Of a DNA stretch of 30,507 nucleotides, positions 4,269-24,382 are shown in pieces (the first letter of the stretch is position 1; every line of letters starts with the position of its first letter). The DNA comes from a virus: the IMG/VR virus record IMGVR_UViG_3300017764_002534, positions 1-30,507 of that record. One strand, 5' to 3'. Below the pieces are notes generated by a model, which made no database searches, was not told where the DNA came from, and saw only the letters and a program-made list of their open reading frames with translations. The translations under genes were made by a program, and so were the position numbers.

Positions 4269-4474
4269 AAAAGAAGAAGAAGTCCCGTCACCGTGATGGC
4301 GATGGTCGATTCGAGGATCATGATTATCATGGATATTATAAGTCCGCACGAAAAACTGAAAAGCGGAATCGAAGACACAACGCAAAAAACAATGTACGAG
4401 ACATTGCCAAAGGGGGAATGACCCCCGAGGAATATGAGGATTACTATCAAAATGACAACCGAAATGACAACTAA
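4265..4474 (+). CDS. Small basic protein between rnh and gene 45
   Basis: A 69-residue protein beginning MKKKKKSRH, rich in Lys, Arg, His and Asp, with a Tyr-containing acidic C-terminus (MTPEEYEDYY, then Asn/Asp-rich). Composition suggests a disordered nucleic-acid-binding or adaptor peptide; no family is recognised. It is supported as a gene by the ATGA overlap with rnh, by its codon use matching the neighbours, and by filling the gap exactly up to the clamp gene, whose ATG comes one base after the stop. It may mainly serve to couple translation of rnh and gene 45. Confidence 0.6.
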   Translation: MKKKKKSRHRDGDGRFEDHDYHGYYKSARKTEKRNRRHNAKNNVRDIAKGGMTPEEYEDYYQNDNRNDN

Positions 4475-4475
4475 A

Positions 4476-5150
4476 ATGAAACTATCAAAGCAAACACTTG
4501 ACATTCTAAAGAACTTCAGTGGGATTAATTCTAACCTACACATTGTCCCCGGACACGATCAGGTAACTGTATCCCCCATGAAGAATATCATGGTAGAAGC
4601 ATCGATGGAAGAGGATTTCCCTGTGGAGTTTGCAATCTGGGATCTAAGTAAGTTCCTCGGAACTCTATCTCTCTTTGAGGATCCTGAACTAGAATTCCAC
4701 GAAAAGCATGTAACTATTTCTAGTGGTTCGACCAATGTTGTTTACCACTACGCAGAACCAAAGTTGGTGAAGGGTTGTAGACCGGATCGTGAATTTAATA
4801 TGCCAGAAACGGTTATTCACTTCGATCTTTCAAACCGTGAGTTTGTTGAACTCCAACGAGCGTCCGCAGTTCTTCGTCTTCCTGATCTTTGTATTACAGA
4901 TAATGATGGGTCTATTGATCTTATCTCTCTTGACAAGAATGATGTAACGAGTAACCGATATTCTATCTCGGTTTCGGATGATGTCCCTGATGCATCTTTT
5001 AAGATGTATCTTAAGAGTGAATATCTTAAGTTGCTTCCGGGTGATTACTCGGTTGGTATCTCGGACAAGGTTGTGAGTCGTTTTGCTCACAGTGATATTG
5101 ATCTCACTTATTACATTGCACTTGACTCGGATTCCGTATACAATGGTTGA
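4476..5150 (+). CDS. 45: Sliding clamp (DNA polymerase processivity factor, gp45)
   Basis: T4-type gp45, the trimeric ring that holds the polymerase on DNA and, in T4, also activates late transcription. The N-terminus MKLSKQTLDILKNFSGINS aligns with T4 gp45 (MKLSKDTTALLKNFATINS), which fixes the start at ATG 4476 although the frame is open with ATG codons upstream. FAIWDLSKFLGTLSLF corresponds to T4 VAIYDLNGFLGILSL, and the ending YIALDSDS matches YVVALEADS. Length is 224 residues against 228 in T4. It follows the small basic ORF by one base and overlaps the gp44 start by 8 bases, as expected for subunits of one holoenzyme. Confidence 0.93.
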   Translation: MKLSKQTLDILKNFSGINSNLHIVPGHDQVTVSPMKNIMVEASMEEDFPVEFAIWDLSKFLGTLSLFEDPELEFHEKHVTISSGSTNVVYHYAEPKLVKGCRPDREFNMPETVIHFDLSNREFVELQRASAVLRLPDLCITDNDGSIDLISLDKNDVTSNRYSISVSDDVPDASFKMYLKSEYLKLLPGDYSVGISDKVVSRFAHSDIDLTYYIALDSDSVYNG

Positions 5151-7224: not shown

Positions 7225-8073
7225 ATGACAACCAGTTTTTGTGATGTAGACTTCAGTGATGGTTTGTCTGGTTGTCGTGTTCGTCTCTCGAATGGGGTCG
7301 TAATAAAAAGTTGCGACAAACCATACGAAACTAGACTATCATCTCAGTGCAAGAAACAAGAGTCGTTTCGTAACTACAATTTTAAAAATATAGAAATCCC
7401 CGCTGTTCTCGGTAAGGACATTGGTTCATTTTCTATGGTATATGCTCAAGGGATGAATTTCTCCTCCTTCTTAGAAAAAGCAAATAAAGTGGACTTAGAT
7501 TTCGTTGTGGAAACTTTGTCTGCTTATTTTGATTTCTTTGAGAGTAGATCTAGACCAAGCGATGAGATTGTCAGAACTAAACTGGTCAACAAATTAAACT
7601 CGATGAAAACATTGGGATTGAGTGTTGTTCAGTTGGAAAAACTATTAGATATACAAACTCATCTAGATATTAGACACTTACCCAAAAGCATGTGTCACGG
7701 AGACTTGACCTTTTCTAATATTATTTTTACGAAAAATAAACTCTGGTTTATTGACATGCTTGACACCTTTATCGATTCGTATTTACTTGATCTAGCAAAA
7801 CTAAAACAAGATCTATTCTACATGTGGTCGAGTAAACTTCGAGGAAAAAAGTCTCTACGAGTGTGTCAGGCGAAGCGTTACATATGGGAAAGACTGTGTG
7901 ATAAAAAAAGTCACCTAATAGAAAATGAATGGTTTGACTTTCTTGATACACTCAATATACTTAGAATAGAACCGTACATTAAAGATGAACACAGACTTGT
8001 GTTTGATGAAATTGTGAAAAGGACACCATACTATGAAAACTCTTATAGTCCCGATGGCGGGAAGATCCACTAG
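7225..8073 (+). CDS. APH/choline-kinase-like phosphotransferase, probable sugar or alcohol kinase
   Basis: A 282-residue protein of the aminoglycoside phosphotransferase / choline kinase fold. The catalytic loop is CHGDLTFSN (157-165) with D160 and N165, and the metal-binding segment FIDMLD follows at 175-180. The N-terminal lobe is short and lacks an obvious P-loop, as is usual for capsule-cluster kinases of this family. It is the first gene of the glycan island and overlaps the nucleotidyltransferase-HAD fusion by 41 bases. A kinase, nucleotidyltransferase and phosphatase set resembles sugar-1-phosphate activation routes such as AmgK/MurU or LicA/LicC (choline). The substrate is not readable here. 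Confidence 0.72.
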   Translation: MTTSFCDVDFSDGLSGCRVRLSNGVVIKSCDKPYETRLSSQCKKQESFRNYNFKNIEIPAVLGKDIGSFSMVYAQGMNFSSFLEKANKVDLDFVVETLSAYFDFFESRSRPSDEIVRTKLVNKLNSMKTLGLSVVQLEKLLDIQTHLDIRHLPKSMCHGDLTFSNIIFTKNKLWFIDMLDTFIDSYLLDLAKLKQDLFYMWSSKLRGKKSLRVCQAKRYIWERLCDKKSHLIENEWFDFLDTLNILRIEPYIKDEHRLVFDEIVKRTPYYENSYSPDGGKIH

Positions 8074-9091
8074 ATTCCCCGGTGAAAAACCAAAGTGGAT
8101 GCTTACGCACCCAAGAACAAATGGATACATGGTCATTGAGTCTTTGTCTGGACTTAATCTAGACTTTTTTGATCAAATTGTTTTTGTTGCCACTGAAGAA
8201 CAACAGGAAAAGTTTTCGTTTATTGATGGACTGAACGCACAACTTGAGGAAAAGGGAATATTAACGAAGTCTAGAGTTTGCCTTTTACCCAATCAAACAA
8301 GGTCACAATCAGAAACAGTTTATCGGGCGATTAAAAAAGAAAATATTTTTGGTTACTTCTATATTAAAGACTCCGATAGTTACTTCAACGCTGATATAGA
8401 AAATACAAAAAATATTGTTAGTTACGCAGATCTATCTGATCAAGATAAAATGAACGCCAGTTCCAAGAGTTATATTGAGATCGATCAGTCTGGTGTAATT
8501 AGTAATATAATAGAAAAGAAAGTTGTGAGTTCGACTTTTTCTGTTGGTGGTTATGGTTTCGCTTCCGCTGACGCATTTTGTCTTGCGTATGAGTCGCTAG
8601 AATATTTTGAAGATGAATGCTACATCAGTCACATAATTTATGAAATGATCTTATCTGGAGAAATTTTCTATGGATTGTCCACCAGTAATTTTGAGGACTA
8701 TGGTACGATTGAGGACTGGGATAATTTTAAGGATGAATACAAAGTTATTTTTACAGACCTAGATGGAACATTGATTACGAACACCGGTCAGTATGACCAC
8801 CCAAAACACGGATCGGGTGAACCTATTGATGATAACATAAATTTTTTAAATCATCTAAAAAGAAAAGGACTCGCCACTGTGATCATAACAACTAGTCGTC
8901 CAGAACACGAACGAGTCACAACCGTAAACGAACTCCGTGAAAAGGGTGTGTTGTATGATCATCTAATCATGGGACTACCGCATTGTAAAAGGTATTTGAT
9001 TAATGATTACGCAAAGAGCAATCCATATCCATCTGCCATATCGATAAACCTCACAAGAAATCTGGGTAATATTGGAGAGTTTTTGAAATGA
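8033..9091 (+). CDS. Fusion: sugar nucleotidyltransferase + HAD phosphatase
   Basis: Two enzymes in one 352-residue chain. Residues 1-232 form a nucleotidyltransferase: PMAGRSTRF (7-15) is the NTP-binding loop, with KPKWML at 19-24, IKDSDSYF at 111-118 carrying metal-binding acids, VGGYGF at 171-176 and EDYGTIEDW closing the domain. Residues 237-352 are a HAD-type hydrolase opening VIFTDLDGTL, with nucleophile D242 and D244, a TTSRPE motif-II segment and a C-terminal DYA acidic motif. Such fusions occur in capsule and LPS loci. ATG 8033 lies 41 bases inside the kinase gene but has AAAAGGA nine bases upstream. It probably activates the product of the adjacent kinase. Confidence 0.82.
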   Translation: MKTLIVPMAGRSTRFPGEKPKWMLTHPRTNGYMVIESLSGLNLDFFDQIVFVATEEQQEKFSFIDGLNAQLEEKGILTKSRVCLLPNQTRSQSETVYRAIKKENIFGYFYIKDSDSYFNADIENTKNIVSYADLSDQDKMNASSKSYIEIDQSGVISNIIEKKVVSSTFSVGGYGFASADAFCLAYESLEYFEDECYISHIIYEMILSGEIFYGLSTSNFEDYGTIEDWDNFKDEYKVIFTDLDGTLITNTGQYDHPKHGSGEPIDDNINFLNHLKRKGLATVIITTSRPEHERVTTVNELREKGVLYDHLIMGLPHCKRYLINDYAKSNPYPSAISINLTRNLGNIGEFLK

Positions 9092-10092
9092 ACATACTGA
9101 TAACAGGTGCTGCTGGTGGAATTGGTTCTACCTTGATTAGAGAATTAAATAATCACTCTTTGTTCTTTATTGATAATCTAAGAAATGGATATGAGCAAAA
9201 TTTGATGGACGATGATGGTAGTCTTTTGGGTGAGTGGAGTCAAACAAGCATCACAGAACCTATGGATGATCTTTGGATGGATGTTGACTTTGACGCTGTT
9301 ATTCATCTTGCGGCGATAACCTCTCTTCCTGATTGCGAGGAAAACTTTACAGAGGCATTTGATATCAATGTCACGGGGACAGCAAATGTTTTACAGTTTT
9401 GTAAAAATAGGGGCATTAAAAATGTCGTGTTCGCATCAACTAGTGCTGTCTATGAAAATACAAAAGATGGTTTGTTGGTGGAAGACATTCCGATCAACCC
9501 CTTACTTTTTTATTCATCAACAAAAATGATGGGCGAGCATATGTGTGATTCGTTTAGAAAAAACTACGACATGAACATAGCGACTCTCAGATTTTTTAAT
9601 GTGTTCGGACCTAGACAAGATTATTTACGAGACAATCCACCCTTATTAAATTATCTTGTTCGTGAATTCTGTAATGATAGAATTCCGATGTTACACTCTG
9701 ATGGAAGTCAAAGCAGGGACTATGTTCATGTTGATGATGTCGTTGAGTTAATTAAAATTTGCATGGAACAGAAAGTCGATGGAACATATAATGTGTGTAG
9801 TGGAGTAAAGATTAGCGTCAAACAAATGGCGGAGTATGTTAGATCAGCACTACATAAAAATGTCGAGGTTACTTATAGAGACTCTAGTAAACTGTGGGAC
9901 ACTAAACCGAATTTGTTCTCCGGAAATTTCCCACTTAAAAAATCTGTAGTCACAAAGGAAACAAATAAAACTTCTCTTGGTAGTTTCGATAAAGCATGGA
10001 AAGAATTGGGATGGAAACCACAAACAAACCTTGAAACTTTAATAAAGAAAGTTTCTGTTGAAATGAAAGACTTGTATTTTGAGGAATCGTGA
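9088..10092 (+). CDS. NAD-dependent epimerase/dehydratase (extended SDR)
   Basis: Second SDR sugar-nucleotide enzyme in the window, 334 residues. It shows TGAAGGIGS at 6-14, HLAAITS at 73-79, ASTSAVYE at 116-123 and the catalytic YSSTK with Y142 and K146; FFNVFGPRQ and RDYVHVDDV are typical of 4-epimerases and 4,6-dehydratase relatives. An insertion rich in Lys/Ser near 275-300 is unusual. The ATGA overlap with the fusion gene suggests it acts on the nucleotide sugar made there. It is clearly divergent from the GalE-like protein at 1300 and so is not a simple duplicate. Whether it epimerises, dehydrates or reduces cannot be told. Confidence 0.87.
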   Translation: MNILITGAAGGIGSTLIRELNNHSLFFIDNLRNGYEQNLMDDDGSLLGEWSQTSITEPMDDLWMDVDFDAVIHLAAITSLPDCEENFTEAFDINVTGTANVLQFCKNRGIKNVVFASTSAVYENTKDGLLVEDIPINPLLFYSSTKMMGEHMCDSFRKNYDMNIATLRFFNVFGPRQDYLRDNPPLLNYLVREFCNDRIPMLHSDGSQSRDYVHVDDVVELIKICMEQKVDGTYNVCSGVKISVKQMAEYVRSALHKNVEVTYRDSSKLWDTKPNLFSGNFPLKKSVVTKETNKTSLGSFDKAWKELGWKPQTNLETLIKKVSVEMKDLYFEES

Positions 10093-10745
10093 TGAACATA
10101 GATCTTTGTGATGTGACCGTTAGATGGATTAATCTTGACTCGGACACAGAAAAAAATGTAATGATGGAAAATTTGTGTGAGCGTATTGGGTTCAAGAACG
10201 CATCCAGATTTTCCGCAGTGACTGGGATTGACCCACATGAGGGAGTCAACCCCGGAGAAGAACACTACCGCAACTGCGCCGAATCTCACTTTAAAGTATA
10301 TGAGGAAACTGATACCTATCCACTTCTCATTTTAGAGGATGATGTGGAAATTGAGGAGTCTGTTTTTACATGTGATTTAAGAAACGTACCAGATGATGCT
10401 GATGCCATTTATCTTGGCATATCACATGGTGACGGAAATTACTTGGCACAAGATGTTGGTGGTGGTTGGATGCGGGTGGAAAGAATATTTGCAACGCATT
10501 CCATAATGTATCTAAATCCAAATATATGTAACGCCGTTACTGAAGTTGGTAAGAGATGGATATATGAACACAACAGACCATTTGATGTTGGGTTTGCGTA
10601 TGAGGTTCAACCTCATTTTAAAGTTTATGCTCCCCACGTTCCTTTCTTCTATCAGGCAGACTCGAAGAATTCTAAAAATAAATGGGAACATTTAACTAGA
10701 ACTCCACTTAACATTAAAAAGAAATTTACGATGGGAACAATGTGA
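10092..10745 (+). CDS. GT25-like glycosyltransferase
   Basis: A 217-residue protein with the family-25 (LPS galactosyltransferase type) signature: VRWINLDSDTEKN near the N-terminus (INLD at 13-16) and LLILEDDVEI around 78-87, with EDD the putative metal-binding site. RFSAVTGID is also typical of GT25. It is probably a retaining or inverting sugar transferase using a UDP sugar; donor and acceptor are unknown. Two in-frame starts exist. GTG 10089 overlaps the previous stop, but ATG 10092 has GAGG at a better seven-base spacing and is preferred. The C-terminus is basic. Confidence 0.75.
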   Translation: MNIDLCDVTVRWINLDSDTEKNVMMENLCERIGFKNASRFSAVTGIDPHEGVNPGEEHYRNCAESHFKVYEETDTYPLLILEDDVEIEESVFTCDLRNVPDDADAIYLGISHGDGNYLAQDVGGGWMRVERIFATHSIMYLNPNICNAVTEVGKRWIYEHNRPFDVGFAYEVQPHFKVYAPHVPFFYQADSKNSKNKWEHLTRTPLNIKKKFTMGTM

Positions 10746-11545
10746 TGAGTAATCTTTGTTATAATCTGCTCGGCAACTTTGGTCGATTAGGAAACGTCAT
10801 GTTTCAATACGCTGCCACACTAGGCATCGCAAGAAAAACAAATATGAACCCTATCGCAGCGATATCAAACGTTGAAAACTTTTCTACTCTGTTTAAACTT
10901 GGTTCCGTCACAGATGCGGTCGTAGAAACTAATATGTTATTCAATGAAGAGTCTTTTTGCTATGATGATAGAGCATTTCGTATTGCGGTTCCAGAAAATT
11001 CAAGTGTAGATATTAGAGGGTACTATCAAACCCCAAAGTATTTTTCACACATCGAAAATGAAGTCAAACAAAATTTTGATTTCAATGAAAATATCAAAAA
11101 CAACGCAATTGATTTGATACCATCTGAACCTTGTGTCTCTGTTCATGTTCGTCGAGGAGACTACGTTCCAATCTCAGACTATCATTTCAACCAAGCAATT
11201 GAGTATTATGAAAATAGCATAAAACACTTTTCAGATTACATTCCTGTATTTTTCTCGGATGATATTTCTTGGTGTAAAGAGACTTTCTCTCATATCAGCA
11301 ACGCTGTTTTTGTAGAAAATAAAGAGACGTTAAACCTCAACGCAAGAATTTCCTCCGATGTTTCTGGATATGTAGATATGTGTGCGATGTCAATGTGTAA
11401 CGCCCACGTTATAGCAAATAGTAGTTTTAGTTGGTGGGGTGCTTATTTGGGCGGAGGACCAACAATAGCACCAAAGACTTGGTTTGGACCAAGTGGTCCA
11501 CAAGATTGGCAAGACATTTATTGTGATGATTGGATATTAGCATGA
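10745..11545 (+). CDS. GT11 alpha-1,2-fucosyltransferase-like enzyme
   Basis: Family GT11, the fold family of bacterial WbsJ/FutC and vertebrate FUT1/FUT2, which add fucose in alpha-1,2 linkage to galactose from GDP-fucose. GRLGNVMFQYA lies at 13-23, the GDP-fucose-binding HVRRGDY at 134-140, FFSDD at 169-173 and NSSFSWWGAYL at 225-235; all conserved GT11 motifs are present and in order. Length of 266 is slightly short but complete. The start is ATG 10745, overlapping the preceding TGA by one base; GTG 10742 is an alternative. No transmembrane anchor is present, so it is likely cytoplasmic. Donor identity is inferred from the family. Confidence 0.9.
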   Translation: MSNLCYNLLGNFGRLGNVMFQYAATLGIARKTNMNPIAAISNVENFSTLFKLGSVTDAVVETNMLFNEESFCYDDRAFRIAVPENSSVDIRGYYQTPKYFSHIENEVKQNFDFNENIKNNAIDLIPSEPCVSVHVRRGDYVPISDYHFNQAIEYYENSIKHFSDYIPVFFSDDISWCKETFSHISNAVFVENKETLNLNARISSDVSGYVDMCAMSMCNAHVIANSSFSWWGAYLGGGPTIAPKTWFGPSGPQDWQDIYCDDWILA

Positions 11546-12180
11546 GAAAAATAGAAGCAGTGATGTTTGATTTGGATGGAGTTTTAGTTGATGCCTGTGA
11601 CTGGCATTACTTTGCACTCAATGAAGCGTTGATGGAAGTCGTCGGCACCGTGATATCAAGGCACGACCATGAAACAACATACAACGGATTGCCGACCAAT
11701 GTGAAACTTGAAATGCTTGGTCTTGACGAAAACCAGCGTGAAAAGGTTTGGGAACTGAAACAAGATCGCACACTCAAAACCATAAGAGAAAATGCAAAAA
11801 ACCAAGTTGAGAAGGTCGATCTATTCGAGTCTCTTATCGATCACGATATTAAAATCGCATGTGTGACAAACTCGATTCGCATGACAGCAAACGAAATGCT
11901 ACATGCAACGGGTCAGTTGAATTATTTTGATGAGATAATTAGTAACGAGGATGTTGAGAACAACAAACCATATCCAGATTGTTATAACTTCGCTGTGAAT
12001 AAACTTGATGTTGACCCAGATAACTGTATAATCGTTGAGGACAGTATGAAGGGTATGCAGGCGGCACAATCCAGTGTGGTGCCAATTGAAAATATTTGGC
12101 ATGTGCAAAACTCGGAAGATGTGACCAAAGAAGGAATGTGGAGGTTTGTGAATGAAAATTTTGATACCAATGGCAGGTGA
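11542..12180 (+). CDS. HAD-family phosphatase (beta-phosphoglucomutase-like)
   Basis: A 212-residue haloacid-dehalogenase-type hydrolase with nucleophile motif FDLDGVLVDA (D10, D12), motif II CVTNS, the lysine motif in NNKPYPDCY and the acidic motif IIVEDSMKG. An alpha-helical cap sits between motifs I and II (about 20-90), placing it in the PGP/beta-PGM subgroup. It could dephosphorylate a sugar phosphate or shift a phosphate. The start at 11542 is an ATGA overlap with the GT11 gene; the frame is open 12 bases earlier through TTG, which lacks support. The 3' end overlaps the next nucleotidyltransferase by 29 bases. Confidence 0.85.
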   Translation: MRKIEAVMFDLDGVLVDACDWHYFALNEALMEVVGTVISRHDHETTYNGLPTNVKLEMLGLDENQREKVWELKQDRTLKTIRENAKNQVEKVDLFESLIDHDIKIACVTNSIRMTANEMLHATGQLNYFDEIISNEDVENNKPYPDCYNFAVNKLDVDPDNCIIVEDSMKGMQAAQSSVVPIENIWHVQNSEDVTKEGMWRFVNENFDTNGR

Positions 12181-12868
12181 AGGCAGTCGGTTTGCGAAAG
12201 AAGGATATGTTTTTCCTAAACCACTTATTGATGTAAATGGAAAACCAATGATCCAAAGGGTCATTGAAAATTTAGACTTTGATGCTGATTATATTTTCCT
12301 TGTTCGCTCTGAACATCTTGAAAAATACTCAGGTCTTCGATCAACACTTCAAAGAATCACAGATGACAGATGCACCATTGTAGAGGTTGACTCTCTTACG
12401 GAAGGTGCTGCTTGCACATGTTTGCTGGCGAAAGAACACATTGATGTTGATGACGATTTACTAATCGCCAACTCAGATCAAATTATTGAATATGAAAAAG
12501 ATAACTTCACAATTCTAAAGAACAACACTGATTTTGATGGTATTGTTTACTGCTTTAATGATGTTCATCCAAAGTGGTCCTTTGCTAGACTAAACTCCCG
12601 ACACATGATTACTGAAATCAGAGAGAAAGAACCGATTTCAAATATTGCGACTTGCGGTATTTACTGGTTTAGACATGGATCTGATTTTGTTAGTAACGCA
12701 GAAACCATGATTGAAAATGACCTCCGAGTTAACGGTGAGTTTTATGTTGCACCCACATACAATCAAATGATCGGTGATGGTAAAAAGGTATCTCCGTTTT
12801 ATGTAACAAAGATGCACGGTATTGGAACACCAGAAGACCTTAACAATTATCTAAGGGTGTCACGATGA
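12152..12868 (+). CDS. Sugar-phosphate nucleotidyltransferase
   Basis: A 238-residue stand-alone nucleotidyltransferase with PMAGEGSRF (6-14), FPKPLIDVNGKPMI (21-34), the acidic LIANSDQII segment near residue 107 and the closing GIGTPEDL. It should join a sugar-1-phosphate to an NTP, giving NDP-sugar and pyrophosphate. A strong Shine-Dalgarno GGAGG at 12140-12144, seven bases before ATG 12152, fixes the start inside the HAD gene. It differs from the fused nucleotidyltransferase at 8033, so at least two activated sugars may be made. It is followed by a cupin gene with an ATGA overlap. The nucleotide and sugar are not determinable. Confidence 0.86.
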   Translation: MKILIPMAGEGSRFAKEGYVFPKPLIDVNGKPMIQRVIENLDFDADYIFLVRSEHLEKYSGLRSTLQRITDDRCTIVEVDSLTEGAACTCLLAKEHIDVDDDLLIANSDQIIEYEKDNFTILKNNTDFDGIVYCFNDVHPKWSFARLNSRHMITEIREKEPISNIATCGIYWFRHGSDFVSNAETMIENDLRVNGEFYVAPTYNQMIGDGKKVSPFYVTKMHGIGTPEDLNNYLRVSR

Positions 12869-13197
12869 TAACATCTCATTTAGATAAGATGAAGGGTGGT
12901 TGGTTTGTTGGTTGCTTTGATCCAACAGAATTTTATTCTGAGGATTTTGAGGTTGGATATAAAGAGTTTAAAAAGGACGAACCACACGCTGATCATTATC
13001 ACAAACTAGGGACTGAAATAAATCTAATCACAAGTGGTAAGGTTGAATTTAACGGCAAAGTATTTGAAAAGGGTAGTATTGTGATCATTGAACCCGGAGA
13101 AAAAACCACAACTAAATTTATAGAAGACTCATCAATCGTGGTCGTAAAAACACCATCGCTCCCTGATGATAAATTTTTATGTGGGGACACACTATGA
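12865..13197 (+). CDS. Small cupin-domain protein
   Basis: A 110-residue single cupin barrel. The metal-binding first motif is visible as HADHYHKLGTEINLITSG, with H44, H46 and E51, and the second motif is weak (KGSIVIIEPGEKTTTKF). Small cupins in glycan loci can be sugar isomerases, 3,4-ketoisomerases or regulators; here it lies between a nucleotidyltransferase and the GQPR genes and overlaps both by ATGA. It could act on the product of the preceding enzyme, but it is equally possible that it is a stress- or dioxygenase-type cupin. Confidence 0.72.
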   Translation: MITSHLDKMKGGWFVGCFDPTEFYSEDFEVGYKEFKKDEPHADHYHKLGTEINLITSGKVEFNGKVFEKGSIVIIEPGEKTTTKFIEDSSIVVVKTPSLPDDKFLCGDTL

Positions 13198-13949
13198 AAA
13201 AAGCAGCGATTCTTTACTCCGGACAACCAAGAGATATCAGGGAGTGTTGTGCAAATCATGTTCACCATTTGATCCGAAACAATCCAGACTTTGATTTTGA
13301 TATCTTCGGACACATATGGATAGATCACGACAATCCCTTTTGGGATATCGCACCCGAAAGAGGGTCATGGAAAGACGACGATGCTAAGTTTATGCTTAAA
13401 AATTGGAAACCAAAAAGAATTGTTTTTGAATCCCCCAAATCATTTAAGTCCAACTTAACTCCAAATCCAGCATGCCCACACCCAGTTCAAAATATCATGT
13501 CAATGTTGTATAGTGTCGAACAAGCAAATATCGCTAGAAATGAATATGAAAAACAAGAAGGGGTCGAGTACGACTGTGTAATTCGTCTGAGAACTGACGT
13601 ATATTTTGGAGACAACGCAGATATTAAATTGTCAACACTAGATCTAAGAAAAATAAATGTGGTTGAGCGAGGTGCCCATAGGGACTATGGTTGCAATGAT
13701 CAATTTGCCATATCAAATTCTGCAAACATGAATGCCCACTCAACCACTTTCTCATCAATTGATAAGTTGGTTGAAATGGGTTGTATTGTAAATCCAGAGT
13801 GTCTTGTTGGGTACAATTCTTTTGTTCATCATGGTATTGATTGTGACTCACATAAACGGGATCATGGTGATAAGTTACAGTTTACTCTGCATAGAGATCG
13901 ATATGCTTCATACAACGGAGGTTGTTTTAACAGGGAATATGAACTATGA
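13194..13949 (+). CDS. 'GQPR' family protein A, putative glycosyltransferase
   Basis: First of three adjacent paralogues of a family I cannot name. It opens AAILYSGQPRD (GQPR at 10-13), continues DFDIFGHIW (34-42), and has YDCVIRLRTDVYF with RLRTDV at 131-136, followed by a CNDQFAISNS segment. An N-terminal Rossmann-like strand, then a centre ending in an R-x-D motif, resembles GT-A transferases such as GT8 or GT25. I infer a glycosyltransferase from that and from its position; no family match is claimed. At 251 residues it is the most divergent of the three. Start 13194 is an ATGA overlap with the cupin; an in-frame ATG at 13179 is less likely. Confidence 0.68.
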   Translation: MKKAAILYSGQPRDIRECCANHVHHLIRNNPDFDFDIFGHIWIDHDNPFWDIAPERGSWKDDDAKFMLKNWKPKRIVFESPKSFKSNLTPNPACPHPVQNIMSMLYSVEQANIARNEYEKQEGVEYDCVIRLRTDVYFGDNADIKLSTLDLRKINVVERGAHRDYGCNDQFAISNSANMNAHSTTFSSIDKLVEMGCIVNPECLVGYNSFVHHGIDCDSHKRDHGDKLQFTLHRDRYASYNGGCFNREYEL

Positions 13950-14779
13950 AAATCGCACTTGCATTTTACGGTCAACCCCGATTCATTAAAAATCCTGTTG
14001 TTTTAGAAACGTATAAAAAATATTACTTGGACAAGTATGATTGTGATGTATTCGCTCACATGTGGTGGGGTGAACCCCAAAATTATAAGGTAGCACTTCA
14101 TGTAAAAAATAAAGGAGAAATGATATCTCCAGATTCCTTAGATTACTTTAATGAAAATTACAATCCGGTAACAATTGAAACTGAACCACCCAAAGAATTC
14201 ATTCCCACTGATGTGGTGAAAGAATCTCTTGATAGGAGGTTTACGGGGAAGTATCCACATGTAGGATCACACGCTCATCAACCATTAAATTATTGGAGTG
14301 ATATTACATACAGTAATGCTTTTTCTCAAATGTATAGCATTCAAAAATCATCTCGCATGGTAATGGAACATGCAAGTAAACTTAATATTGAATATGACTT
14401 TGTAGTTCAGGCAAGATATGACACCATGTTGTTTGATATACCTGATTTGACCGAGTGTGAAAAGAAGTTACACTTACCAAACCATCACGGTAGATTCCCC
14501 GACCTACATCTGTTTTTCGCACACAAACACTTGGATTGGGCAGGTAATATTTTTGATGACATAGAAACAGTTTACGATAGAATTGATAGACCCGGTTGTG
14601 AGAGATGGAAGTTTGAATCTTTTAAAAATAGATTCCCACTCTCCGATATAAATCCAGTCGCTATGGACGGAATGTGTGTCCGATCTATTGATGATAATGA
14701 AAAGAATTCAATTAGTGGATTCTGCTATCAACACAGAGAAACACAAAAAGCGATAGACGCGAGAGGATATTACAAATGA
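13946..14779 (+). CDS. 'GQPR' family protein B, putative glycosyltransferase
   Basis: A 277-residue paralogue of its two neighbours. Shared landmarks: FYGQPR at 7-12, DCDVFAHMWWG at 32-42, GEMISPDSL, a YSIQKSSR helix, YDFVVQARYDT with ARYDT at 156-160, HHGRFPD and FPLSDINPVAMDG. Close to protein C along the whole length and at DNA level in several stretches, so a tandem duplication is evident. Most extra length against A lies in a loop around 95-120 (containing GSHAHQPLNYW). Starts ATGA-overlapped with A. Function inferred as sugar transfer only from position and fold-like pattern. Confidence 0.68.
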   Translation: MKIALAFYGQPRFIKNPVVLETYKKYYLDKYDCDVFAHMWWGEPQNYKVALHVKNKGEMISPDSLDYFNENYNPVTIETEPPKEFIPTDVVKESLDRRFTGKYPHVGSHAHQPLNYWSDITYSNAFSQMYSIQKSSRMVMEHASKLNIEYDFVVQARYDTMLFDIPDLTECEKKLHLPNHHGRFPDLHLFFAHKHLDWAGNIFDDIETVYDRIDRPGCERWKFESFKNRFPLSDINPVAMDGMCVRSIDDNEKNSISGFCYQHRETQKAIDARGYYK

Positions 14780-15588
14780 AAATCGCAATTGCATTTTATG
14801 GTCAACCAAGGTATGTTACAAATAAGCACATCCTAAACTCATATAAAAAGTATTTTTTGGACAAGTATGATTGTGATGTGTTTGGACATATGTGGTGGGG
14901 AGATCAGACTGAGTATGACACATCTTCTTGGAATAACTGCGTAGGAGAAATGATATCTCCCGACTCTTTAGAGTTTTTTAGTAAAAATTACGATCCCATA
15001 GTTATTGAAACAGAGGAACCAAGAGAATTTGAATTTGACGACCACGTTGCCAAGTTCATTGATGAAAAGTTTACTGGCAAAAATCACTGCCCCAAGAATG
15101 GTCAAATATGGTGTCAAAGAAACTACAGTAATTTGATGTCTCACTTGTATTCTATGCAGAAATCATCTAGAATTGTTTCTGATTACTCGAACGAAAAGGG
15201 CATCACCTATGATTTTATAGCACTAGCGAGATACGATACTATTTTGTTTGATATTCCGAATCTAGATGAATGTGATAAAGGAAAATTACATCTACCATGT
15301 CATCACGGTAGATTCCCTGATGTGGTAATGTTTTGCCCCCATAAACACCTAACATGGTCTGGTAATCTTTTTGATGATATTTCTAATGTATATGATAAAG
15401 TTGATACCCCTGATCCTGTACGATGGAAATATGAATCTTTTATAAGTAGATTCCCACTATCGGATATCCAACCAGCAAGGATGGATGGGTGGTGTTGTCG
15501 CTCTATTGGTGATGATGAAAATATTGCACGGTGTTTTGAACACAGAAATCAAGAGGTCTGGGAAAGATCGAAAGGATATTATAAGTGA
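14776..15588 (+). CDS. 'GQPR' family protein C, putative glycosyltransferase
   Basis: A 270-residue tandem copy of protein B, with FYGQPR at 7-12, DCDVFGHMWWG at 32-42, GEMISPDSL, YSMQKSSR, ARYDT at 151-155, CHHGRFPD, FPLSDIQPARMDG and a C-terminal RSKGYYK echoing RGYYK in B. Variation is concentrated between residues 45-60 and 80-115, which could be donor or acceptor-binding loops that diverged after duplication. ATGA overlap with B; the stop overlaps the next gene's GTG start. No membrane segment. Function is inferred as for B. Confidence 0.68.
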   Translation: MKIAIAFYGQPRYVTNKHILNSYKKYFLDKYDCDVFGHMWWGDQTEYDTSSWNNCVGEMISPDSLEFFSKNYDPIVIETEEPREFEFDDHVAKFIDEKFTGKNHCPKNGQIWCQRNYSNLMSHLYSMQKSSRIVSDYSNEKGITYDFIALARYDTILFDIPNLDECDKGKLHLPCHHGRFPDVVMFCPHKHLTWSGNLFDDISNVYDKVDTPDPVRWKYESFISRFPLSDIQPARMDGWCCRSIGDDENIARCFEHRNQEVWERSKGYYK

Positions 15589-16508
15589 AAATAGCAGCAG
15601 TTGTGCCTCCGGCATCTTTAAATTTGGGAAATGACTTTTTTGCCGAGGGAGGAATGGAATGTTTTAGACAAGTCTTCTCTGAACATGAGATGGACATACA
15701 CTATATTGAATTTTTTGATAGTGGTGAGAATGGGTTTGCTCCCAACGGGCAGACTTCTTACTTCACACCCGCCACTTTAGAATGGATTAAAAAAGAGGCA
15801 GACTTAGTTGTTCTTTTTGCGGGGTGTGCCTTACATGAGGGACAGAGACATTTGTTCCAACCACTCTTAGATACAGGAGTTCCATTTATCGGGTGGGGTC
15901 TGTCGCCCACATCTTATAATGACTCCGATGTGAAATTTGCAAAAGAAATCTCTGACAAGTCACTCGCACTAATTACCAGAGATAATTTAATCGCAGAACT
16001 AGTTGGAGAGTATCCGAAGTTTATCAGTGGCATGGACGGTGGTTGGTGGATGGGAGACTCTTATAAAAGACCGGGTAAAGCAACAGGATATACGGTCATA
16101 AATATCGAAGAGGGTAACTCATTAAATGTTGGACAATCACTAGCAAAGTATGACGAACTAAAATCACAAGATAAAACGATTTACATGGTATCTAACAACT
16201 GTGAAAGAAATTGTCATCACATGCACCCCGGATCACTTTTGATCACCAGTGCAAGACATCTGTATACCACCTTCGCCAATGCAGAACATGTCATCACCAC
16301 TCGGGCACACACCACTATTTGTTGTTTAACTAACGGAGTACCTGTTGAATATGTGGGTCATCTTGACTATAGGACTAGAAGTTTGATGGCGACTGTTGGA
16401 GTTGACATGGGTAATTTGAGTTCATATAATCCAGATGATGTTCAGAAAATTGTCGCATCCAGTAAGAAAAACTTTGTCGAGATGATAAGAGACAAGATAA
16501 AACTTTGA
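15585..16508 (+). CDS. Polysaccharide pyruvyltransferase-like protein
   Basis: A 307-residue protein resembling the polysaccharide pyruvyltransferase family (CsaB/WcaK type), which adds ketal-linked pyruvate from PEP to a sugar. Signs are the N-terminal NLGNDFFAEGG (13-23), the central FIGWGLSPTSYND, the ALITRDN segment near 128-134 and the diagnostic VITTRAHTTICCLTNGVPVEYVG (R240, H242), where the family has a conserved R-x-H. GTG 15585 overlaps the preceding stop. Pyruvylation would add a negative charge to the glycan. The family call is fairly good; the reaction here is inference, and a GT-B-like transferase is the alternative. Confidence 0.75.
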   Translation: MKIAAVVPPASLNLGNDFFAEGGMECFRQVFSEHEMDIHYIEFFDSGENGFAPNGQTSYFTPATLEWIKKEADLVVLFAGCALHEGQRHLFQPLLDTGVPFIGWGLSPTSYNDSDVKFAKEISDKSLALITRDNLIAELVGEYPKFISGMDGGWWMGDSYKRPGKATGYTVINIEEGNSLNVGQSLAKYDELKSQDKTIYMVSNNCERNCHHMHPGSLLITSARHLYTTFANAEHVITTRAHTTICCLTNGVPVEYVGHLDYRTRSLMATVGVDMGNLSSYNPDDVQKIVASSKKNFVEMIRDKIKL

Positions 16509-16522
16509 TAATGGAAAAATAA

Positions 16523-17323
16523 ATGGTGGCGTTTTACAATTGTGTTGATCACTCTATAATACAGCAGGGAGACTTGTTCCCAGATCCCCCAGAACTAAAT
16601 GTTTTGGTGGACTGCTCTATCATTAGTGACGATGCCTCTTTTACAAAAGAAAACACGATAGCATGGATAGTCGAAAGTCCCGCTATAATAGAAGCATATC
16701 ATCCCGGTTTTTCTGATGAGTTGAAAAACAGACTAAAGAATGGTTCTCATAATTTTAGTAAATTATACACATACGATCCCTCATATAAAGACTACCCAAA
16801 CGTGGTGATGTTTGACTACTGTCCTGCCTCCACATGGATCGAAAAAGAAAATAGAATCATTCACAACAAAACAAAACTTGCCTCTTATATTTCTTCAAGT
16901 AAAAGGTTCACTTCTCTACAAGTCGCTCGAAATAAACTCATAGAACAACTCATGTTCAACGAAAGCGTTGACGTTTATGGTAGAAACGTGAACCCAATTG
17001 AAAAAAAGTCTGACGCTCTACGAGATTACTGTTTTTCATACGCAATAGAAAATTGCTCTCATCCCGGATACTTCACAGAGAAAATAGTTGACTGTTTTGT
17101 AACAGGGACGGTTCCGATCTATTTGGGAGATCCGACAGTGGATCGACTTTTTGATCCAAGAGGATTTATAAAACTTGAAAATAATCAAGATATAGAGTTG
17201 TCATTTGACAGGTATTATGGTATGATGCCTCACATAGAAAAAAATTACGAGATTGCTATGAATATTAAAAATGAATTTAGGGACCAGATCCCTGTTATGA
17301 TTGAGGATTATATTAATGCATAA
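16523..17323 (+). CDS. GT10 (alpha-1,3/1,4-fucosyltransferase-like) enzyme
   Basis: C-terminal signature of family GT10: DYCFSYAIENCSHPGYFTE at about 168-186, then KIVDCFVTGTVPIYLGDP with YLG at 200-202 and FDPRGFI near 210-216. These correspond to the GDP-fucose-binding region of bacterial and vertebrate alpha-1,3-fucosyltransferases. The N-terminal acceptor half is reduced, giving 266 residues against over 300 in typical members. ATG 16523 follows a 14-base gap, the largest within this part of the cluster; an ATG at 16511 is followed by a stop after three codons. Together with the GT11 gene it makes two predicted GDP-fucose-dependent transferases. Confidence 0.88.
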   Translation: MVAFYNCVDHSIIQQGDLFPDPPELNVLVDCSIISDDASFTKENTIAWIVESPAIIEAYHPGFSDELKNRLKNGSHNFSKLYTYDPSYKDYPNVVMFDYCPASTWIEKENRIIHNKTKLASYISSSKRFTSLQVARNKLIEQLMFNESVDVYGRNVNPIEKKSDALRDYCFSYAIENCSHPGYFTEKIVDCFVTGTVPIYLGDPTVDRLFDPRGFIKLENNQDIELSFDRYYGMMPHIEKNYEIAMNIKNEFRDQIPVMIEDYINA

Positions 17324-18254
17324 ATTACCCATCACTTTTATCATACCATACAAGAGAGATTGTTCTGACAGGGAAAGAAATCTTAGAGTTGTTGTTCATC
17401 ATTTGTTACACAACTATGACGCGAAGATAATTGTCTTTGAGGCAGATGAAAAAGAAACCATAAGTTCTATTTTGCCCGAAGATGATAGAATTACTTGCAT
17501 GTTCGAGTATCTCTCACTGGATGGTGTTTTCCATCGAACAAGATATCTAAACATGATGCTTGCCGAGGTAACCACGCCAATCGTTGCAAACTATGATGTA
17601 GATGTAATGTTCGATCCCAAAACAATTGATCGTGCTTGTTCTTTAATTTTAAACGATGAGATGGATGTGGTTTATCCATATGGTGCTGGGACCACAGATC
17701 AGTTTAGAATGTTTATTCCCTTTGATGGTGATTATATTATCGACAATAAACTGTACGAACACCCAACTAAAATTATAGAAGAATTGGCAGAATATTTGGG
17801 ACATAATAATTGTCCCATCGTAACGAATTCTCAAGAAAATAAAGTAAGTGTTTCTACTCCGGATCCCATGTTGGGTGAACAGACAGAGGGTGAATTTAAG
17901 GAGTATGGTATTTGCTCTTGGACAACCCTCGCCGGTCATTGCATAGTTTTTAGAACACAAACCTATTTTGATGGATACATGGAAAATGAACTGTTTTGTG
18001 GATGGGGTCCGGAGGATGGAGAAAGATTACATCGATTCACCACTCTAGGATACAGAGTAGTTCATCTCTCCGGGGAAAATGTGTTTCACCTAGAACACAG
18101 AAATCCCCCATCCTCAACCGATTTCAATCCAAGTCTAAATCGAAATAATGAACTCTGGAACATGTACAAGATCTATCATGATAAAGATAATTATGAAAAG
18201 ATTTACGAAGCACTCGACTATTATAAAAAGTATAAGAAAAAGGAACTAGTGTGA
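17316..18254 (+). CDS. GT2-type glycosyltransferase with GT7C-like galactosyltransferase motif
   Basis: A 312-residue GT-A enzyme. The N-terminus ITFIIPYKRDCSDRERNLR resembles polypeptide GalNAc-transferase/chondroitin-synthase-type transferases; NYDVDVMFDP carries the D-x-D motif (D94, D96), and FCGWGPEDGERLHR (GWG at 229-231, ED at 233-234) is the GWGxED motif of beta-galactosyl and chondroitin-type transferases. The C-terminus is lysine-rich. Start ATG 17316 overlaps the GT10 stop by eight bases; the frame is open back to a TTG at 17301, which is not needed. Probably uses a UDP-sugar donor; acceptor unknown. Confidence 0.82.
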   Translation: MHKLPITFIIPYKRDCSDRERNLRVVVHHLLHNYDAKIIVFEADEKETISSILPEDDRITCMFEYLSLDGVFHRTRYLNMMLAEVTTPIVANYDVDVMFDPKTIDRACSLILNDEMDVVYPYGAGTTDQFRMFIPFDGDYIIDNKLYEHPTKIIEELAEYLGHNNCPIVTNSQENKVSVSTPDPMLGEQTEGEFKEYGICSWTTLAGHCIVFRTQTYFDGYMENELFCGWGPEDGERLHRFTTLGYRVVHLSGENVFHLEHRNPPSSTDFNPSLNRNNELWNMYKIYHDKDNYEKIYEALDYYKKYKKKELV

Positions 18255-19204
18255 ACAAGAAAAAGATAGCAATAATCGGTCCCGGCATCATGCCCATTCC
18301 ACCCGAGGGGTGGGGTGCTGTTGAAATTTTAGTTTGGAGACATAAGTGTTCTCTAGAAAAGTTAGGACATGAAGTCACCATCTACAACACCAAAGATCTT
18401 CACGGTGTTGCAAATCACATCAACTCATCTGACTATGATTTTGTTCACAATCAGTACGACGAGTTCGCTGGATTTCTTTCACAAGCGTTGCAAGTTCCTT
18501 TTTGTACGACAACCCACTTTGGTTATATCATGAGAGAACATCTGTGGGGGCATGGATACGCACATGATGTCTTCCCGAAGACTCTCCTAAGTCCTTCTAT
18601 TCTTGCATTGTCAGAAGGTATTAAAAACATGTATTTGTCTAAGGGATATCAAGGCAAGATCGATTATTTGAGAAACGGTGCTGAAGTCGGAGAGTTTAAG
18701 TTTAAAGATCATGGAAACGGCAAGGCAATTGTAGTTGGAAAAATTGAAGATAGAAAACGACAGAGAGACATAGCGATTGCATGTGGAGGCAAGTCTCATG
18801 TTGATTTTGCGGGTCCATCCATCGATCCAAACTACAGAGATACTGAAACTTGTAAGCATATTGGTCACTGGACAAAACCAGAACTATATGAAAATCTTTC
18901 AAACTACTCTACACTTGTTCTTTTCAGCGATGGAGAGGCAGCACCTCTTGTTGTACCCGAGGCGTTCGCTGCCGGACTAAATGTGGTCGTAAGTGAGTGT
19001 GCGTCTGCCAACATCGACAGAGATCTTCCCTTTGTTACAGTTGTTCCTGACGATGTGATTCAAGATGATCTTCCAGATGTGATCAATGAATCTTGTGAGA
19101 GTAACCAACAATACAGAAAAGAAATCAGACAACTCGCAGAGGATCACTATGACTGGGATGTGATCATGGAAGAATATGTCGAAAAGATTGGAGTAACGAT
19201 ATGA
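18251..19204 (+). CDS. GT4 family (GT-B fold) glycosyltransferase
   Basis: A 317-residue GT-B enzyme. The N-terminal block IIGPGIMPIPPEGWGAVEILV at 8-28 is the classic GT4 donor-side opening, and SDGEAAPLVVPEAFAAG (226-241) is the C-terminal nucleotide-sugar-binding segment, including E229 and E237 in the family's E-x7-E position. NGAEVGEF and the VVGKIEDRKRQ segment also fit GT4. Such enzymes retain anomeric configuration and commonly build capsule or LPS chains. GTG 18251 overlaps the previous stop. Donor and linkage are not readable. Confidence 0.87.
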   Translation: MNKKKIAIIGPGIMPIPPEGWGAVEILVWRHKCSLEKLGHEVTIYNTKDLHGVANHINSSDYDFVHNQYDEFAGFLSQALQVPFCTTTHFGYIMREHLWGHGYAHDVFPKTLLSPSILALSEGIKNMYLSKGYQGKIDYLRNGAEVGEFKFKDHGNGKAIVVGKIEDRKRQRDIAIACGGKSHVDFAGPSIDPNYRDTETCKHIGHWTKPELYENLSNYSTLVLFSDGEAAPLVVPEAFAAGLNVVVSECASANIDRDLPFVTVVPDDVIQDDLPDVINESCESNQQYRKEIRQLAEDHYDWDVIMEEYVEKIGVTI

Positions 19205-19884
19205 TCGGGTGGTTGGTAATAGGAACAGCGAAGTATTTTGAAATTGGTGTAAACTGCCTTCAGAGTATCAAAGAAAATTATAAGGGGGAACACGACTCTA
19301 AGTATTTTCTATTCACTGATCGTGGTGCAGAAATACCAGAGGACATGGGGTGGATTGACGTAATCGATATAACACACCTTCCTTTTCCATTTATCTCTAT
19401 GGCAAGATATGCTCACTTTATGGACAGGAAAGATATGTTCTCCGAGTGTGACTATCTTTACTATATTGATGCAGATAGTTTGTTCATTGATGTTGGAGAT
19501 GAAATTCTCAGTAAGAGAACCACCGTCTTACATCCAAGTTACTACATGAACGAAACAGACACACATCCTTACGACAGAAACCCCGAGTGTCAGGCGTACA
19601 TTCCTATGGGAAGTGGTAACCAATATTATCAAAACTGTTTTCAGGGTGGAGAAAAAGAAGAGTTTCTAAAGATGTCGGAAATCCTCCGTGATAGAACAAA
19701 CACTGATCTGGGAAATGATGTCATCCCAAAGTGGCACGATGAAAGTCACATGAATAAATACATGAGTGAGAACCCACCAACATTAATATTAAATTCTGGA
19801 TACGCATTTCCAGAGGGGTGGGATCTGCCCTTTGAACAAAAAATCATGGGTATATCTAAAAACAACGTAGAAATTAGGAAATAA
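19201..19884 (+). CDS. GT6 glycosyltransferase (ABO / alpha-1,3-galactosyltransferase family)
   Basis: Family 6 member related to the human ABO transferases and alpha-1,3-galactosyltransferase. In order: FLFTDR at 36-41, PFPFISMARYAHF at 61-73, YLYYIDADSLF at 85-95 with the metal-binding D90-A-D92, YYQNCFQGG at 142-150 and KWHDESHMNKY at 177-187. The last is almost the vertebrate WHDESHLNKY, and its glutamate (E181) corresponds to the catalytic one. NSGYAFPEGWD ends the fold. At 227 residues it is a soluble catalytic domain without the vertebrate membrane stem. Donor is expected to be UDP-Gal or UDP-GalNAc, which the GalE-like enzyme could provide. ATGA overlap with the GT4 gene. Confidence 0.92.
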   Translation: MIGWLVIGTAKYFEIGVNCLQSIKENYKGEHDSKYFLFTDRGAEIPEDMGWIDVIDITHLPFPFISMARYAHFMDRKDMFSECDYLYYIDADSLFIDVGDEILSKRTTVLHPSYYMNETDTHPYDRNPECQAYIPMGSGNQYYQNCFQGGEKEEFLKMSEILRDRTNTDLGNDVIPKWHDESHMNKYMSENPPTLILNSGYAFPEGWDLPFEQKIMGISKNNVEIRK

Positions 19885-19886
19885 AA

Positions 19887-21236
19887 ATGAGTAGACCAAC
19901 CGTTACATTGTGTATGATTGTTAAGGATGAGAGTCATATCATCCATGAGTGTCTTGAGTCGATGCTACCGTATATTGACCGATATGATATCACTGATACA
20001 GGATCTACTGATAAAACTGTAGAAATCATTCGTGAGTGGGGGAAGAAGAATAATATTCCCGGAACGGTATATGAAACCGATTGGAAAGGTTTTGGAAAGT
20101 CAAGAACAGAATCACTAAGAAACGCTGATAAGGGCGGCGCAGATTATTCGTGGGTCATTGATGCCGACGACATGATTAAGGGTGATTTTAAATATCCACC
20201 TGAGTTTGGACAACACTGGGGATATACTCTAAAAATTCATAGAGGTGACTTTGAGTGGTGGAGAAACCAAATATTCAAGAACAATGTTGGTTGGGAATAT
20301 ATTGGTGTTATTCATGAATATGCAAACTGCGAGAATTTACAAAAAGAGGGCGGAACCATAGCAAGACTTTTGGGGAACTATTGTATCGATGCTCGAACAA
20401 TGGGTAATCGAACAAAAGAATTTGATGATGAAAATGATCCAGAAGCATGGAAGAAAAAGTATCTTCACGATGCAGAGACACTTAAAGATTGTTTAGAAAA
20501 TCCTGATAATATTAATTATGATCCAGACAATCAACGATATCATTTTTATCTCGCACAGTCTTACTTTGATGGAGGAGACTTTAAAAACGCAAAGGTGTGG
20601 TATGAAAAGCGTGCTGAACTCGGAGGGTGGGAAGAGGAACAATGGTACTCTGTTCTCAGAGTTGCCATGTGCATGTCAAACCTTGGAGAAGACTGGGCAA
20701 AAATCCAAGACGTTTTCTTGCAATCATATAACCTCAGACCATCTCGCGTAGAACCCTTGTATAACCTCGCTAGAATTCATAGATTGAACGGAAACGCTAG
20801 ATTGGGTTATCTTTTTTCTAAAATGGGTTGTACCATTGGTTTTCCCGCCAATGATGTCTTGTTCGTTGCGAAGGACACATACGAATGGCAGATCTGGGAT
20901 GAACTCGCCTCCACTGCTTGGTACTCGGGTGATATGGAAGCGGGACTCTTTGCTTCAAATAAATTATTAACAGAAAAAAAATATCCTGAATCAGAGCATG
21001 AAAGAATTGTAAATAACTTCAAACAATATGCCGCATGGCACGAAGAACAGGAAAAAGCAAAGAAAAATGCATTAGAGGAAGCGGAAAAAGAAAAATACAT
21101 AAGGGAAGAAGTAGAACGTAGACTCTCCGAAGAAAGAAAAAACAATGCCAAAAATAGAGAACAACAAAATAAGATAAATAAAAGGAGAAAGAAGTCAAAG
21201 GCGGCAAGCAAGTCGCGTAAAGCATCGAGGAGATGA
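19887..21236 (+). CDS. GT2 glycosyltransferase with helical repeats and Lys/Glu-rich tail
   Basis: A 449-residue protein. Residues 1-180 are a GT-A domain: TLCMIVKDESHIIHECLES, DTGSTDKT (37-44) and WVIDADD with the D-x-D motif at 92-95. From about 215 to 370 there is a TPR-like helical stretch (YFDGGDFKNAKVWYEK, YSVLRVAMCMSNLG, LYNLARIHRLNGN). From about 384 the chain becomes a charged coiled coil, ending in a Lys/Arg/Ser-rich tail (KRRKKSKAASKSRKASRR). GT2-TPR proteins can glycosylate proteins, and TPR regions bind polypeptides, so transfer onto a protein acceptor is plausible. It is the last gene before the fibre operon, separated by 3 bases. Acceptor is inference. Confidence 0.82.
   Translation: MSRPTVTLCMIVKDESHIIHECLESMLPYIDRYDITDTGSTDKTVEIIREWGKKNNIPGTVYETDWKGFGKSRTESLRNADKGGADYSWVIDADDMIKGDFKYPPEFGQHWGYTLKIHRGDFEWWRNQIFKNNVGWEYIGVIHEYANCENLQKEGGTIARLLGNYCIDARTMGNRTKEFDDENDPEAWKKKYLHDAETLKDCLENPDNINYDPDNQRYHFYLAQSYFDGGDFKNAKVWYEKRAELGGWEEEQWYSVLRVAMCMSNLGEDWAKIQDVFLQSYNLRPSRVEPLYNLARIHRLNGNARLGYLFSKMGCTIGFPANDVLFVAKDTYEWQIWDELASTAWYSGDMEAGLFASNKLLTEKKYPESEHERIVNNFKQYAAWHEEQEKAKKNALEEAEKEKYIREEVERRLSEERKNNAKNREQQNKINKRRKKSKAASKSRKASRR
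21173..21180 (+). promoter_or_regulatory. Candidate T4-type late promoter (GATAAATA)
   Basis: GATAAATA fits the NATAAATA late-promoter pattern described for marine T4-like phages and the T4 TATAAATA box. It lies 60 bases before the ATG of the first structural gene (21240), inside the tail end of the glycosyltransferase gene, where late transcription of fibres would need to start. The tract is very A-rich, so a chance match is possible. Confidence 0.4.

Positions 21237-21673: not shown

Positions 21674-21677
<4 letters not shown>
21240..21677 (+). CDS. Small virion-associated protein upstream of fibre gene
   Basis: A 145-residue protein beginning [25 protein letters not shown], with the later segments [10 protein letters not shown] and YDLELVLN...[15 protein letters not shown]. 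This pattern recurs directly upstream of fibre genes in marine T4-like phages; it is probably a structural or fibre-attachment protein, but I know no proven role. Between residues 57 and 100 it holds a Gly/Ser/Thr-rich linker. It starts three bases after the glycosyltransferase stop, with AGGAG (21228-21232) about 7 bases upstream, and overlaps the fibre gene by ATGA. Confidence 0.75.

Positions 21678-24378
<2,701 letters not shown>

Positions 24379-24382
<4 letters not shown>

Follow-up and report, generated by a model that had tools for sequence, protein, structure and literature searches.

A tandem triplet of predicted GT-A-fold glycosyltransferases that carry R-x-D at the putative DXD position, from a probable cyanophage

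Results

The window that we analysed, a 30,507-nucleotide stretch of viral DNA (IMG/VR record IMGVR_UViG_3300017764_002534), contains three genes, here called A, B and C, that lie head to tail within a glycan gene cluster, neighbours overlapping by four bases (Table 1); for A, the open reading frame listing starts instead at an ATG at 13179. A first-pass annotation had described a tandem triplet whose members share an N-terminal GQPR motif, a D-x-D-[IV]-F-x-H-[IM]-W block, a long MS-[ML]-YS-[VIM] helix and a Y-D-[CF]-[VI]-...-R-x-[TY]-D core. Indeed, these motifs are present in all three reading frames, and A, B and C are homologous genes: pairwise blastp was significant for A/B (E = 2.2e-7), A/C (E = 8.1e-12) and B/C (E = 4e-111, 54% protein identity). 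These comparisons are the independent evidence of homology; the profile-profile match between the A3 and A4 alignments is inflated, since both share rows. The GQPR coding pattern GGNCARCCNMG has three matches in the window, all inside the triplet, against 0.37 expected, and at least three matches were reached in 0 of 100 shuffles.

Table 1 Coordinates of the triplet, its candidate site residues and its neighbourhood in the window
Feature	Coordinates	Strand	Basis or remark
Gene A, GQPR family, A-type clade, 251 aa	13194-13949	+	ORF from ATG at 13194
Gene B, GQPR family, tandem copy, 277 aa	13946-14779	+	ORF
Gene C, GQPR family, tandem copy, 270 aa	14776-15588	+	ORF
R133-T-D135 of A, R-x-D at putative DXD position	13590-13598	+	Alignment; DXD equation from strand order
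R157-Y-D159 of B	14414-14422	+	Alignment
R152-Y-D154 of C	15229-15237	+	Alignment
B residues 50-52 (ALH); S-x-W in most non-A members	14093-14101	+	Non-A member alignment
C codon GTA, Val215	15418-15420	+	Glu in 73/74 non-A members
Upstream part of glycan cluster: GT25-like, GT11, HAD hydrolase, NTP transferase, small cupin-like protein	10089-13197	+	Pfam
Downstream part of glycan cluster: pyruvyl transferase, GT10, GT7-like, GT4-like, GT6, GT2 with TPR	15585-21236	+	Pfam
Weakly phosphotransferase-like gene	7225-8073		APH, below cut-off
Gene with NTP-transferase-like start and HAD part	8033-9091		
Separate HAD gene	11530-12180		
Separate NTP-transferase gene	12152-12868		
First large collagen-like gene	21674-24382		
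Second large collagen-like gene	24890-26743		

The first-pass annotation could match the proteins to no named family. This stands in so far as no characterised family claims A, B or C; the proteins are nonetheless catalogued as PHROG 13607, which they matched over most of their length in a profile search (A 7.5e-33, B 1.4e-33, C 3.3e-38, from a library that has no curated cut-off), and A weakly matches DUF7796 (PF25072; 24.2 bits, below the gathering cut-off of 27 bits), for which the Pfam search gave no row for B or C. A DUF7796 match at E<=0.1 is found in 24 of the 27 rows of the A-type alignment, and a distant kinship of A with DUF7796 is likely because three relatives reach the 27-bit cut-off (L071, 29.4 bits; L085, 27.1; L090, 34.9). 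An NCBIfam search returned chance rows only; a PDB sequence search returned nothing for the profiles and, for A, only two chance CFAP107 rows. In the literature searched, we found no mention of DUF7796 and no title or abstract start naming the GQPR family.

With C as query we found 28 IMG/VR loci, and with the profile 195 IMG/VR relatives, from which only the top 80 were retained; a pattern-limited viral scan with A alone gave no relatives. A phage collection yielded 14 records matching C and 16 matching A, all of them Synechococcus phages. The profile search identified 178 family proteins in 85 loci (L003-L087), at least two of them in 73 of these loci, and cyanophages carry up to three family copies. 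After identical copies and proteins shorter than 200 aa were removed and A, B and C of the window were added, 128 distinct rows remained. Our bacterial searches were bounded by pattern or by group and so do not establish that bacteria lack the family: one relative (L087) turned up among 44 pattern stretches of a bacterial genome collection, and one of 392 Planctomycetota genomes matched, again L087. The same 392 genomes gave one weak PF25072 hit, below the cut-off and to a different part of the profile, and a plasmid search with the L087 protein found none. The L087 contig is assigned to Planctomycetaceae bacterium TMED10, but its genes follow an order similar to the one in the cluster of phage S-SM2 (L032), and it may be phage DNA that was misbinned.

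The commonest order in the relatives is GT11, GT6, an A-type gene, a gene hit by the HAD as well as the NTP-transferase profile, and a C-type gene, so A- and C-type genes are there set apart. Adjacent family genes occur in 2 of the 85 loci (L071 and L072), and later also appeared in four other viral contigs (L090-L093), where two GQPR genes lie head to tail at 2992-4532; tandem copies thus recur outside the window. In the phage S-SKS1 (L094), a stretch of 3.4 kb contains three GQPR genes, including one adjacent pair.

The survey of the neighbourhood bore out the suggestion that GQPR genes keep company with glycosyltransferases: among the 85 loci, whose counts are not independent since many contigs nearly duplicate one another, homologues of NTP transferases occur in 83, HAD in 76, GT4 in 68, GT25 in 66, GT6 in 65 and GT11 in 63. 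In the window itself, the cupin-like call was made by eye, with no Pfam hit, and the GT2-TPR gene has no homologues in L003 and L035. The sugar cluster region is immediately preceded by replication genes of T4-like type (clamp, clamp loaders, regA); the host of this virus is probably a cyanobacterium, since the best relatives of its clamp loader, at 57-59%, are Synechococcus phages and single-cell marine viruses. The phosphotransferase-like gene opens the sugar cluster right after regA and has homologues in only 2 of the 85 loci. Most relatives have a single gene matching HAD and NTP transferase between the A- and C-type genes, as against the three genes of the window that share out these parts (Table 1). 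The two collagen-like genes are directly downstream of the glycan cluster.

AlphaFold2 gave confident models of C (pLDDT 92.2, 40 sequences) and A (pLDDT 89.4, 27 sequences). Foldseek against the PDB placed C closest to glycogenin (1.5e-5) and A closest to BoGT6a (3.5e-7). In VIA-align, where Z 7-8 is usual for models that have no clear match, A matched BoGT6a (4ayj; Z 12.9, rmsd 3.4, 189 aligned) and, tied with it, COLGALT1 (9evj; Z 12.9, rmsd 3.9, 200 aligned), and the top match of C was COLGALT1 (9evk; Z 11.6, rmsd 3.5, 188 aligned). All 50 matches listed for A and all 50 listed for C have titles that we read by eye as glycosyltransferase or polysaccharide synthase. The predicted fold of A and C is that of a GT-A glycosyltransferase, as the first-pass annotation had suspected; the searches assigned the proteins with confidence to no family outside the glycosyltransferases, and the models did not lack a nucleotide-sugar fold. 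B would share this fold, judging from its 54% identity to the modelled C.

At the level of profiles, we found no links to sets of GT6, GT25, GT11, GT4, NTP transferase, HAD, epimerase or pyruvyl transferase; hhalign against cyanophage GT6 was not significant, either with a first GT6 set that held fused ORFs or with the cleaned set, and Pfam gave no PF03414 (GT6) row at E<=1 for A, B or C. Among viral models, the top match of A was an S-PRM1 protein (E 2.8e-23), followed by proteins of Catovirus, Fadolivirus, Tupanvirus, Sylvanvirus (the last named DUF7796) and chlorella virus MT325, with a Cafeteria roenbergensis virus protein named glycosyltransferase at rank 18. The family probably bridges cyanophages and giant viruses, to judge from predicted fold and about 16-22% identity in these matches.

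Nine residues are invariant in all 128 distinct members (C numbering: Ala4, Gly9, Arg12, His38, Trp40, Ser122, Arg152, Asp154 and Asp182), and a C-terminal Arg, Arg242, is kept in 126. The R-x-D is thus present in 128 of 128, and its Arg and Asp recur in all 11 held-out proteins (L090-L094), among which the three S-SKS1 copies vary at the His, Trp, Ser or Asp182 columns. In the models, R-x-D falls between strands 147-152 and 155-158 of C and between strands 128-133 and 136-138 of A, which we take to be the inter-strand position held by DXD in GT-A enzymes. In a visual comparison, YDCVIRLRTDVYF of A corresponds to CDYLYYIDADSLF of the GT6 encoded in the window. We did not find the DXD metal motif expected of GT-A enzymes in the family; R-x-D stands there by strand order and would be its counterpart, an equation drawn from strand order rather than superposition, and only inferred because the profile comparison with GT6 was not significant. 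Of the two motifs proposed in the first-pass annotation for the metal site, R-x-D and D-x-D, only the former is supported by these data. The DxD[IV]FxHxW block is not the likely metal motif, because only its second Asp is conserved (117 of 128) and the universally kept R-x-D occupies the DXD site by strand order.

B and C are sister copies (support 100/99 in a 72-row tree) that group with L035 and L003 (100/100), and A falls in a separate clade; A is therefore older, as had been proposed, in the sense that its split from B/C predates the split of B from C. The two copies use the same codon at 81 of 141 conserved residues, against 62.8 +/- 5.7 expected from codon usage. Their tandem duplication is real but not recent, because identity over the whole genes is 66% at the DNA level and the longest exact matches are 23, 18, 17 and 12 bases; the near-identical DNA stretches from which duplication had been deduced are accordingly short. 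Loops said to vary around 45-60 and 80-115 do so at alignment positions 45-60 (identity 0.33) and 105-120 (0.15), and identity is also low at 135-150 (0.33) and 255-270 (0.25). B evolved faster relative to one of four outgroups only (42 versus 18 changes, p 0.003; p 0.22, 0.29 and 0.24 for the others).

B and C also lack different near-invariant residues, which fits either divergent roles or one impaired copy: B has lost S50 and W52, found in 71 and 70 of 74 non-A members, respectively, and C has Val at a column, C215, that is Glu or Asp in 127 of 128 family members. One copy could on this basis be catalytically impaired and serve as partner or scaffold of the other, and pseudo-enzymes such as COSMC do exist among GT-A enzymes (PMC7185993). 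We nevertheless regard impairment as unlikely. All nine invariants, R-x-D included, are kept in both copies; each has a further Glu four residues past the C215 column (128-row alignment) that may substitute for Glu215; and the change at C215 is not unique, since Gln stands there in 4 of the 11 held-out proteins, each encoded by the first GQPR gene of its contig (L090-L093), so this Glu is perhaps dispensable. Moreover, we found no second contig carrying gene C, and the Val215 codon, seen in one contig only, may be an assembly error.

Discussion

We think it likely that A, B and C are metal-independent glycosyltransferases of GT-A fold, belonging to an uncharacterised, mostly viral family and engaged in building a surface glycan, with B and C duplicated in tandem and then diverged. 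A GT-A fold does not prove glycosyltransferase function, and the activity is predicted from the models. Each protein would probably use two elements to bind a nucleotide-sugar, the GQPR loop that follows strand 1 and the strand bearing VFxHxW; R-x-D would replace the metal-binding D-x-D of GT-A enzymes, and its Arg, together with the conserved Arg near the C-terminus, may stand in for the metal by neutralising the diphosphate, so that a metal would not be needed. We propose this by analogy with enzymes in which basic residues take the place of DXD: in BoGT6a, NXN replaces DXD, two C-terminal cationic residues contact the diphosphate and activity is metal-independent (PMC3961637), and GT14 works without DXD, using basic side chains, other metal-independent GT-A families likewise having none (PMC7185993). 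Against a metal-free reading, Mn-dependent COLGALT1 and mammalian GT6 score as high as BoGT6a, and the kept Asp of R-x-D could still bind a metal.

The three enzymes would add sugars sequentially to the glycan that the genes around them make, which is most likely a polysaccharide of the host surface, rebuilt in the course of infection; pelagimyophage glycosyltransferases have been suggested to alter the host O-chain against co-infection (PMC7029224). The same enzymes might instead attach sugars to the phage particle itself. One candidate acceptor would be the Thr-rich collagen-like fibres encoded just downstream, whose longest G-X-T runs span 16 of 17 and 9 of 9 triplets and whose Pfam Collagen matches lie one above and one below the cut-off. 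COLGALT1, a top structural match, is a collagen galactosyltransferase, and enzymes of the chlorella virus PBCV-1 glycosylate its own capsid protein (PMC9614988). This reading seems improbable to us, given that of 12 GQPR-bearing records, some of them fragments, no more than two contain a four-triplet G-X-T run; of the four GenBank phage records among them that were searched over their full length, one has such a run, a long way from its GQPR genes; fibre glycosylation is therefore not the general role of the family. That A, B and C are nucleotidyltransferases of related Rossmann-like fold, in a neighbourhood that makes sugar nucleotides, is very improbable, as the structural matches listed are glycosyltransferases, separate NTP-transferase homologues occur in 83 of the 85 loci and Pfam matched none of A, B and C to NTP transferases.

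An earlier study (PMC3037559) leaves undecided whether cyanophage LPS clusters work or are stuffer DNA; GQPR conservation bears on that question, and the invariant site residues and conserved neighbourhood argue for function and against stuffer DNA. More tentatively, with rather less than even confidence, GQPR and DUF7796 proteins might form a new, mostly viral glycosyltransferase family of cyanophages and protist giant viruses, with Arg for the metal-binding Asp of DXD and metal-free activity, in which tandem paralogues build sugar chains. For a family that was already catalogued, this analysis adds the prediction of GT-A enzymes whose DXD site would be occupied by R-x-D, and it points to an R-x-D variant of that site.

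Among known systems, the retaining GT-A family GT6, through BoGT6a, is the best fold match of A and resembles the GQPR family in its replaced DXD and C-terminal cationic residues; it differs in having NXN rather than R-x-D, and no sequence or profile link joins the two. COLGALT1 (GT25), top or tied fold match of both C and A, was solved with Mn and likewise has no sequence link to A, B or C. Domain 2 of PBCV-1 A064R is a viral, cation-independent rhamnosyltransferase of an unnamed GT family (PMC9614988) and may be a further parallel. DUF7796 is met again in the Sylvanvirus protein of that name that A matches in fold. PHROG 13607 is a phage family given no function, to which we add a predicted fold, the R-x-D and a duplication; together with its likely kin in DUF7796, it gains a candidate, testable activity.
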